A DNA stretch of 64,000 bases from Glandiceps talaboti (lineage: Eukaryota; Hemichordata; Enteropneusta; Spengelidae). The translations under genes and the position numbers were made by a program. Location: contig NC_135568.1 in the NCBI RefSeq assembly GCF_964340395.1, positions 20,483,581-20,547,580 of the forward strand. The letters are read 5' to 3'. Below, piece by piece: positions 26,701 to 29,700 of this stretch. Each line of letters opens with the position of its first letter. The stretch's first letter is position 1. The notes under the pieces are model-generated. The model was given only the letters and a program-made list of their open reading frames with translations. It made no database searches and had not been told where the DNA came from.

Positions 26701-29700
26701 CATTCAGATCACCAATAGTCCTACCATTTAAAATTAGTAAATTATTTTGAATACAAAGATCAATCAACTCACGACCAAAATTATTACTACAAAATTTACC
26801 ACTATCCATGGAAATTCTTTCATAAATATCATCGGGAATGAAATCAATTTGAGAATTACAAAAATCAACATCATCATCACGAATACAATCTTGTAGATTG
26901 CCAGTACAAGCATTAAAATCACTAAGCAAAATTACATCCCCACAAGAAGAATAACGTAAAATTTCAAACTGTAGCGAATCAAAATAATCATCGCTAGAAT
27001 GCATAATAGAACCTTGTGGAGGTATATATACACAACAGATATAAATGTCTCGAACACATGAAAAAGATTTTTTATCCAGTTTACACCAAAGACAATCTGA
27101 AATTTTTGAATCCAATTTCTGAATACCACTCTGTAAAATTGGCTTGAAAAAGACAACAGATCCCCCAGCAGCACGTTTACTACGTTTATGACGAAAAGTG
27201 TGATCAGATCTGAAAAAGTTATAGCCATTCAGTGAGATATCATGCGATTTTGAAAGCCAAGTTTCTTGTACACAAAAAATATCAAATTTATCAACAATAT
27301 CTTGAAAATCTACATCATTACATTTGTTTGTAAGACCAACCTGAATATTCCAACTTCCAATACTAAGTGATGTTGGACTCTTATGACAAGAATTCGTAAT
27401 ATTATTCGTAATATGTATATTATATTATAATATACACGATGAATTCCATCACCTTTTTGATTTCCTCCCTCCCCTGTCAGATTCCTGATTACCATGATAC
27501 CCCTCCCCACTAGCCCCCCTTTGTCTCTCCCCACTAGCCCCCCCCCCCCCAGCCCAAATTAATAAATATGCACCCCCCCAACAAAAAATAAAAATAAATA
27601 AATAAAAATAAAAAAAAATAAAAATAAAAATAAAAATAAAATAAAAAATCATCGGTCACCAGTGTGTCATACCATGAAAAAATAACATGTTTACACCTGG
27701 TACTTTGTCTATTGAACCAATTGGTAGCTCACTTGTTACCTTGTCATCAAAGTTTCCATCAATAGACAGACTACCATTAACCAATAGTTAGATTAGGCCC
27801 ACCTAACTTTGTGATTTAGTTAGACTTACTTGACACTCCAGTTATTAGTTTCCAGTTGTCATACCATATACCAGCATGTACACAGATATCAAAGTATGGA
27901 TACTCTTTGTATAGACTAGGACCACCTAACTTTGTGATTGATTTAGGCTTACTTGACACTCCAGTTATTAGTTTCCAGTTGTCATACCATATACCAGCAT
28001 GTACACAGATATCAAAGTATGGATACTCTTTGTATAGACTAGGACCACCTAACTTTGTGATTTAGTTAGACTTACTTGGCACTCCAGTTATTAGTTTCCA
28101 GTTGTCATACCATATACCAGCATGTACACAGATATCAAAGTATGGATACTCTTTGTATAGACTAGGACCACCTAACTTTGTGATTTAGTTAGGCTTACTT
28201 GACACTCCAGTTATTAGTTTCCAGTTGTCATACCATATACCAGCATGTACACAGATATCAAAGTATGGATACTCTTTGTATAGACTATAGGACCACCTAA
28301 CTTTGTGATTTAGTTAGACTTACTTGGCACTCTAGTTATTAGTTTCCACTTGCCATACCATATACCAGCATGTACACAGATATCAAAGTATGGATACTCT
28401 TTGTATAGACTAGGACCACCTAACTTTGTGATTTGTTTAGACTTACTTGGCACTCCGGTTATTAGTTTCCACTTGTCATTACCATATACCAGCATGTACA
28501 CAGATATCAAAGTATGGATACTCTTTGTATAGACTAGGACCACCTAACTTTGTGATTGATTTAGACTTACTTGGCACTCCAGTTATTAGTTTCCAGTTGT
28601 CATACCATATACCAGCATGTACACAGATATCAAAGTATGGATACTCTTTGTATAGACTAGGACCACCTAACTTTGTGATTTAGTTAGACTTACTTGGCAC
28701 TCTAGTTATTAGTTTCCACTTGTCATACCATATACCAGCATGTACACAGATATCAAAGTATGGATACTCTTTGTATAGACTAGGACCACCTAACTTTGTG
28801 ATTTGTTTAGACTTACTTGGCACTCCGGTTATTAGTTTCCACTTGTCATTACCATATACCAGCATGTACACAGATATCAAAGTATGGATACTCTTTGTAT
28901 AGACTAGGACCACCTAACTTTGTGATTTGTTTAGACTTACTTGGCACTCCGGTTATTAGTTTCCACTTGTCATACCGTATACCAGCACGTACACAGATAT
29001 CAAAGTATGGATTCTCTCTGTATAGACTGGGTGCTGATGGATTGCTACATCTTTCTAATGGATCAATGTTTATCAGAAATTCATCTCTTGAAGATGGTTT
29101 ACCCTGACTGCAAAATAAAAATATATTTCATTCAGCAAAAATAAAAAAAATGTTTGTTTCCGATAACATTACTTCTCAAAATAGGGTAGGTAGGTAGGTT
29201 GGGATTTATTTTATTTTAATTATGTGAACCCAAAGACAAGATACTCATTGGTCACAATACTTCCGTAACAGTTGATGTACATCATCAACTGTTAAAAGAT
29301 CCAAGTAAATGAAGACATTTATGAGATTCAGCAGTAGACAAACACAATATGTAGACTGTGCTGTTATAGGCTGAAATGGCATAACAAATTCTCTCTGGAA
29401 TGTGATTTCAAAAAAAGTAACCACAGATACTTTGGCAAGAAAATCTACAAGGGAAAAAAGAGAATTAAATTGTCATAATTTTACCTTTTGCATGTTAAAA
29501 CTGTTAAAGTCTCCATGAAAGAATTGACCATGGTAGTCTAGAGGCAATTTATGGCTTTGAATCTCATCTGGTGTCAAAGGTATGATTGAGTTAATTACTG
29601 TGATTAAAATCATCATGCCTTTCCTAATCAATCATAGAATTCTGGCCAATGATAAGTTGACATTTATTGGGGGCAATTGTCCAAATTTGCCTTTAATATC

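Follow-up and report, generated by a model that had tools for sequence, protein, structure and literature searches.

The window analysed here (the whole stretch of 64,000 nucleotides) carries on its minus strand a complete sulfatase gene; the seven joined exons give 511 codons with zero internal stops. The encoded protein matched the Pfam Sulfatase family (E-value 1.9e-55), and its best match among solved structures was human N-acetylgalactosamine-4-sulfatase (ARSB; 1fsu, E-value 6.5e-154, residues 23-511), which bears out the name ARSB given to the gene in an earlier reading of the sequence (hereafter, the original prediction). The translation also contains the C-S-P-T-R stretch that surrounds the catalytic cysteine. 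A protein search of the whole genome (28 of 28 candidates scored) identified no other locus with more than 47% identity to this ARSB-like gene, and a DNA search (40 of 822 candidates scored) gave no second copy among the matches listed, the others being to a dispersed repeat just upstream of exon 6. This repeat lies immediately upstream of the exon, at ~29115-29198 of the window, and has at least 39 matches elsewhere in the genome. The assembly represents a 590-Mb genome in 47 contigs, and 23 of the 37 contigs with a size noted are of 16-36 Mb. The gene and its exons, in window coordinates, are as follows:

23449..39247, minus strand: whole ARSB-like gene, seven exons, 511 aa, Sulfatase domain (frame reconstruction, Pfam, structure match)
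39247-38996, minus strand: exon 1 (frame reconstruction)
37929-37743, minus strand: exon 2 (frame reconstruction)
36895-36693, minus strand: exon 3 (frame reconstruction)
34034-33824, minus strand: exon 4 (frame reconstruction)
30121-29872, minus strand: exon 5 (frame reconstruction)
28941..29107, minus strand: exon 6, 167 nt; first array unit at 28906-29028 (intron position as in paralogs)
23449..23714, minus strand: exon 7, dropped from the open frame upon use of an extra donor (frame reconstruction)

Intron 5 is of the GC-AG type, with the donor CAG/GCAAGT at 29866-29871, and the remaining five introns begin with GT. Besides the array at exon 6, TRF identified ten other tandem arrays in the window, with periods of 23-151 bp. 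Introns 3 and 4 of the ARSB-like gene are 88% and 94% tandem repeat, respectively; the minisatellites at 30153-32911, 33049-33784 and 34098-36388 occupy introns 4 and 3 and stop ~18-63 bp from the neighbouring splice sites. A 51-bp array of 157 copies (56076-64000) reaches the window end.

The array at the exon 6 donor

TRF placed the exon 6 array at 27789-29028, with a period of 123, 10.0 copies, 95% matches and a score of 2220, and reported a further period of 370. Each unit consists of the last 88 nt of exon 6, starting within the exon at AGTCTATACA, and 35 nt of intron beginning with the donor; ten such units stand head to tail, seven of 123 bp, two of 124 bp and one of 125 bp. The donor G positions are 28940 (the real donor), 28816, 28693, 28570, 28446, 28323, 28198, 28075, 27952 and 27829; GT is present in all ten and GTAAGT in eight, the remaining two (28198 and 27952) reading GTAAGC. 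We regard the donor at 28940 as the real one because most paralogs have the same phase-1 intron there and because it joins in frame to exon 7. The original prediction that the end of exon 6 and its GTAAGT donor had been amplified into about nine extra copies, as a minisatellite of 123-124 bp that includes about 30 intron bases, agrees well with the TRF copy number, the ten donors located and the unit structure, the units being slightly more variable (123-125 bp) and the intron part slightly longer (35 nt). Its span of 27797 to 29107 needed correction, as exon 6 starts at 29107 and the extra copies run on the minus strand from 28905 to 27789 or 27795. The copy number was read from one haplotype. 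The array features are:

28935..28940, minus strand: authentic donor CAA/GTAAGT (sequence, frame reconstruction)
27795..28905 (lower end 27789 or 27795), minus strand: nine extra tandem copies, each CAA/GTAAGT or CAA/GTAAGC (TRF, unit alignment)
28849..28851, minus strand: TAA met by any transcript reading past the real donor, inside the first extra copy (frame reconstruction)
27781..27800, minus strand: right edge of the array, where the intron continues as GGGCCTAATCTAAC; putative site of the founding duplication, given its short similarity to CCCAGTCTA on the exon side (direct reading and inference)

Multi-unit blocks were duplicated within the array, as seen from the identity of copies 1 and 4, the mere three columns that distinguish copy 2 from copy 5, and the 370-bp period. 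The exon unit was on average the most divergent (5-11 differences), its 3' part excepted; it differed from copy 1 at columns 11, 16, 41, 52 and 57 and at none across columns 58-126, a part that is identical to both copies 1 and 4, a pattern that points to sequence exchange between copy 1 and the end of the exon. When the nine extra copies are compared with one another, 13 of 126 columns are variable: one of the nine columns in the donor 9-mer CAAGTAAGT and 12 of the 117 elsewhere. Four fixed differences separate the exon from the copies and each alters an amino acid; two of them are CpG transitions, CGT/CAT (R/H) and CGG/TGG (R/W). The exon unit has three CpGs, and copies 1 to 9 have 1, 0, 0, 1, 0, 0, 0, 0 and 0; over the window the CpG observed/expected ratio is 0.58 and that of TpG+CpA is 1.31.

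The offsets of the extra donors from the real donor are 1 or 2 modulo 3 in nine of nine cases, i.e., none is in frame, where most had been predicted to be out of frame. As had also been foreseen, reading past the real donor would meet a stop in the next copy (TAA, 28851-28849), and all nine extra donors lead to this same TAA after 453 codons, with the loss of exon 7; exon 6 would lengthen from 167 nt with the real donor to 291-1278 nt with the extra ones. With the first extra donor this stop would stand 32 nt from the junction, and with the other eight it would stand 155-1019 nt away. A premature stop more than 50-55 nt before a junction usually triggers decay, so RNA made with the first extra donor probably escapes decay and RNA made with the other eight probably does not. 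The frame prediction (453 codons, eight of nine stops beyond the usual threshold) is thus in line with the earlier expectation that use of a downstream donor would give truncated or NMD-sensitive RNA. We also considered the extra copies as cassette exons and rejected this, because the junction between units gives a TAG before TCTATACA without a pyrimidine tract and the phase is unfit for exon 6.

Mirages and the recurrence of splice-site arrays

Tandem repeats across exon-intron boundaries have been named mirages in amphioxus, where the excerpts of PMC3087553 describe them in Adh3 (units of 10-72 bp) and in the globins BflGb6 and BflGb9 (units of 150-160 bp). According to the same excerpts they show length instability, which at Adh3 is somatic too, and RT-PCR suggests normal splicing; excerpts of PMC3902484 add a troponin C mirage, state that the Adh and troponin C mirages generate no aberrant mRNAs, and liken imperfect repeats in lancelet PGBD5 to mirages. 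As far as these excerpts go, the ARSB array is similar in being a boundary-spanning minisatellite (88 nt of exon, the donor and 35 nt of intron per unit) whose copies carry splice signals (GT in 10 of 10, GTAAGT in 8 of 10), and in having homogenised inner copies with divergent edges, seen here in the identity of copies 1 and 4, the 370-bp period and the most divergent position of the exon unit, save for its 3' part. From these sequence features the ARSB array fits an already known class. It differs from the amphioxus mirages in being a ten-donor array in a sulfatase, in belonging to a genome that has arrays in two gene families and a mitochondrial gene order unlike the lancelet orders consulted, and in being known here from genome sequence alone. 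The intron 3 and 4 arrays were considered as further mirages and set aside, since they end ~18-63 bp before the acceptors of exons 5 and 4 and are without exon sequence.

Two other systems offer partial likenesses. The gain of introns by internal tandem duplication (the AGGT proto-splice-site model, discussed in the excerpts of PMC3087553) likewise involves a duplication that carries a splice site; in the ARSB array, however, the unit has a donor and a mere acceptor-like TAG without a pyrimidine tract, and therefore no new intron is set up. The array resembles intronic minisatellites in general in unit length, in turnover and in having ten neighbour arrays in the window, but 88 nt of its unit are coding exon, and the unit also includes a consensus donor. 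Among the papers listed by a literature search on hemichordate genomes, none was seen to bear on such arrays.

Similar structures were sought in 17 sulfatase paralog stretches of 10 kb each, with 88 tblastn pieces tested, and tandem copies of an exon edge were identified in four loci (L012, L013, L017 and L002). In L012 the acceptor and first codons of exon 4 form a 27-bp unit in 83 copies with 80 strict acceptor-like matches, and the exon frame is open for 128 codons (~14 nearest units) upstream of the unique part before a stop. L017 has a 92-bp acceptor unit in 2.8 copies and L002 has one extra copy on the acceptor side. Apart from a 26-bp match in L003, we took the remaining extra paralog matches to be either microsatellites, with steps of 2, 4 or 8 bp, or gene copies nearby. 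Two of these paralog arrays, together with one from the kinase sample described below, are located as follows:

L012:8201-10000 into L090 (G000:C7:27667100-27669345): acceptor array (tandem-copy analysis)
L013:5783-6529: last codons, stop and following bases of a sulfatase paralog, 39-bp unit, 19 copies
L073:555-1034 into L091 (G000:C11): kinase donor array

The second sample comprised 40 of 132 protein-kinase rows, a family chosen regardless of repeats; rows were taken in rank order with some skipped, mostly ones with stops or full-length domains, and the pieces were of ~170-440 bp with 400-bp flanks. Repeats overlapped the piece in five of the 40 loci and spanned a donor in four (L060 and L071 with degenerate copies, L061 with two copies, and L073), a proportion that is rough and likely low because the kinase pieces need not reach the exon ends. 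L073 has eight TATGAG/GTAAGT donors at an exact spacing of 84 bp (28 codons each), with all copies open in the exon frame. L068 was rejected as donor-spanning, since the array detected there reaches into the piece from the acceptor side by just 5 bp. Coverage of the kinase loci by tandem copies on the donor side was 11.7% in the first 50 bp and 9.9-12.9% farther out; on the acceptor side it was 2.8% in the 50 bp before the piece versus 4.2-7.5% farther away, and 1.5% inside the piece. The arrays keep their density up to the donor side and seem to thin toward the acceptor side. The flat donor-side coverage fits arrays that form irrespective of donors and can be tolerated next to them, though this profile is a weak test of neutrality, given a small sample, pieces that may fall short of exon ends and flank bins that share arrays. 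We speculate, with considerable doubt, that splice-site arrays across exon boundaries are pervasive in this probably hemichordate genome (~1/10 of exons) and provide a naturally graded series in which donors, or acceptors, compete, and that where the units are open (the eight donors of L073, the nearest ~14 units of L012 with 9 codons each) array sites could give proteins of variable length.

A probably tolerated array and the alternatives

We favour, with a probability of roughly 0.8, the reading that a boundary-spanning segment was amplified as a minisatellite, that the extra copies are intronic, that the exon-proximal donor is used, and that the array is tolerated. In the founding step a 123-bp segment across the exon 6 donor would have been duplicated in tandem, probably through mispairing of the exon sequence CCCAGTCTA with the similar intron sequence GCCTAATCTA; the exon-side CCCAGTCTA does resemble a short intron stretch at the right edge of the array, GGGCCTAATCTAAC. 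The array would then have grown and turned over as any minisatellite, including by duplication of multi-unit blocks, and exchange between the array and the exon end itself probably took place. The nine extra copies would be intron, and the spliceosome would choose the closest, exon-proximal donor as partner of the exon 6 acceptor, as only the real donor yields a 167-nt exon. Leakage to later donors would produce one shortened reading frame of 453 codons, in RNA that is mostly prone to decay, and it would thus be the donor choice that keeps the array harmless. Both this choice and the mechanism of origin are what we infer, the choice being backed by the published lancelet cases; the anatomy of the array, the effects on the frame, the differences between exon and copies and the recurrence in this genome are what the sequence shows. 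The array is accordingly best described as a mirage, most likely tolerated since the exon-proximal donor is used. The original prediction had allowed for tolerance through strict first-donor choice as its more cautious alternative, and the recurrence of arrays together with the lancelet analogy favours that alternative, if donors are indeed chosen as we suppose. In mammalian test genes with duplicated strong donors, the intron-proximal one can be preferred, so that leakage would be expected, and this speaks against our reading; a literature search on competing donors found no paper.

The bolder proposal had been a brake tunable by copy number, in which extra donors compete with the real one and yield truncated or decayed RNA, so that array length sets ARSB output. 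Eight of ten donors have the consensus GTAAGT, and the nine extra donors share one stop. Eight of them put it 155-1019 nt ahead of the following junction, farther than decay normally requires, and the first puts it at 32 nt; as in a poison donor, the alternative site leads to a premature stop in nine of nine cases. The sites do not, however, appear to be conserved or selectively maintained: donor columns vary like the others (1/9 versus 12/117), and a donor array at this exon was found in none of the 17 paralogs, where the extra matches in L010, L012 and L017 sit at least 30 bp past the end of the exon match. Similar arrays occur on unrelated genes; the comparable kinase array keeps an open frame throughout, so that stops are no shared design, and the excerpts of PMC3087553 and PMC3902484 report the lancelet mirages as silent. 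Our comparisons thus found no support for a tuned brake, which we judge very unlikely. A milder possibility is that a few percent of transcripts use the extra donors and are cleared, as unregulated splice noise at a mild cost, perhaps buffered by paralogs. Ten near-identical donors would make such noise plausible, and the 17 further exons of the exon 6 type that the genome has in paralogs make buffering possible, whereas the undepleted donor-side coverage in the kinase sample suggests that any cost is small; this is a graded form of the tolerated-mirage reading, overlapping with it, and as a separate account we think it possible, if on the improbable side.

The array might instead be an archive of an older exon 6, re-writable by gene conversion, an idea that began with the prediction that the copies keep a family-typical VHA where the exon has VRA. 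The VHA and VRA sequences are as predicted; 'family-typical' does not hold in this genome, where the 17 paralog exons (protein search hits) have R at this first site in six cases, H in three and other residues in eight, and we accordingly rejected VHA as ancestral, with the limit that human ARSB has H. At the second site R stands in 16 of the 17 paralogs and W is absent; the N/Y site has N in eight and Y in three, and the K/N site has K in five and N in four. These counts were read by eye without formal alignment from paralogs that are not independent (some are near-identical to each other, and L006 and L007 are identical in protein sequence there). An exchange between array and exon is likely, since the exon unit shares its 3' part unchanged with copies 1 and 4, and human ARSB agrees with the copies in having H at the first site and, at the K/N site, the N found in five of the nine. 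Against this, the exon states are commoner in the paralogs, and the H and W of the copies are CpG transitions in a CpG-poor window; for these reasons the copies look decayed rather than ancestral, at least from the residues compared, although for H and the K/N site human ARSB points the other way. We consider preservation of an older exon highly improbable. An assembly artefact, i.e., a false array or a wrong copy number, would be in keeping with the error-prone nature of tandem arrays and with another contig of this assembly being a threefold mitochondrial concatemer; but the differences among the copies, at 13 of 126 columns, form a pattern, the array (1.24 kb) is short relative to long reads, and like structures occur at unlinked loci, so an artefact is scarcely credible.

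The ten donors in series, the eight at 84-bp spacing and the 83 acceptor units are natural competition experiments on splice-site choice, and if splicing stays exon-proximal then exon definition would hold strictly even with many strong rival sites. Mirages were described from lancelets; our samples suggest that they are also common in another deuterostome lineage and can be counted genome-wide. The value lies less in the single ARSB array than in the frequency of arrays within a small sample of the genome and in their use as tests of splice choice; annotators should also be warned that sequence resembling an exon, when it lies beside one of these exons, is probably intronic.

Other elements and the mitochondrial genome

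Non-LTR-like ORF pieces (endonuclease and reverse transcriptase by eye) lie in intron 6 at 24043-27424, adjoining the array; in a Pfam search of three pieces, the endonuclease piece alone passed. Elsewhere in the window, an open frame of 1168 aa with a PHD finger, an endonuclease and a reverse transcriptase (4406-7912) represents a non-LTR element with a PHD domain, and a transposase fragment with matches to HTH_Tnp_Tc5 and DDE_1 lies at 12495-13184.

The mitochondrial contig (G000:C40) is a threefold concatemer of 15,435 bp with 53% GC, in which we identified cox1 by Pfam and named the other genes by reading. The gene cob lies between atp6 and cox3, and trnV directly adjoins trnL(UAA), so that the large rRNA cannot lie between the two. 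Taken with the codon use given below, this makes a hemichordate with a rearranged mitochondrial genome the closest, though still tentative, reading of the animal's phylum. The gene order is unlike the lancelet orders in the excerpts of PMC2034537, which state an Asymmetron order and a vertebrate-like order for Branchiostoma and Epigonichthys, and it differs from that of both hemichordates named in the excerpts of PMC2697986 (nd5 next to cob). The codon AAA is nearly unused in the eleven open frames (3 versus 53 AAG), as those excerpts of PMC2697986 report for Balanoglossus.
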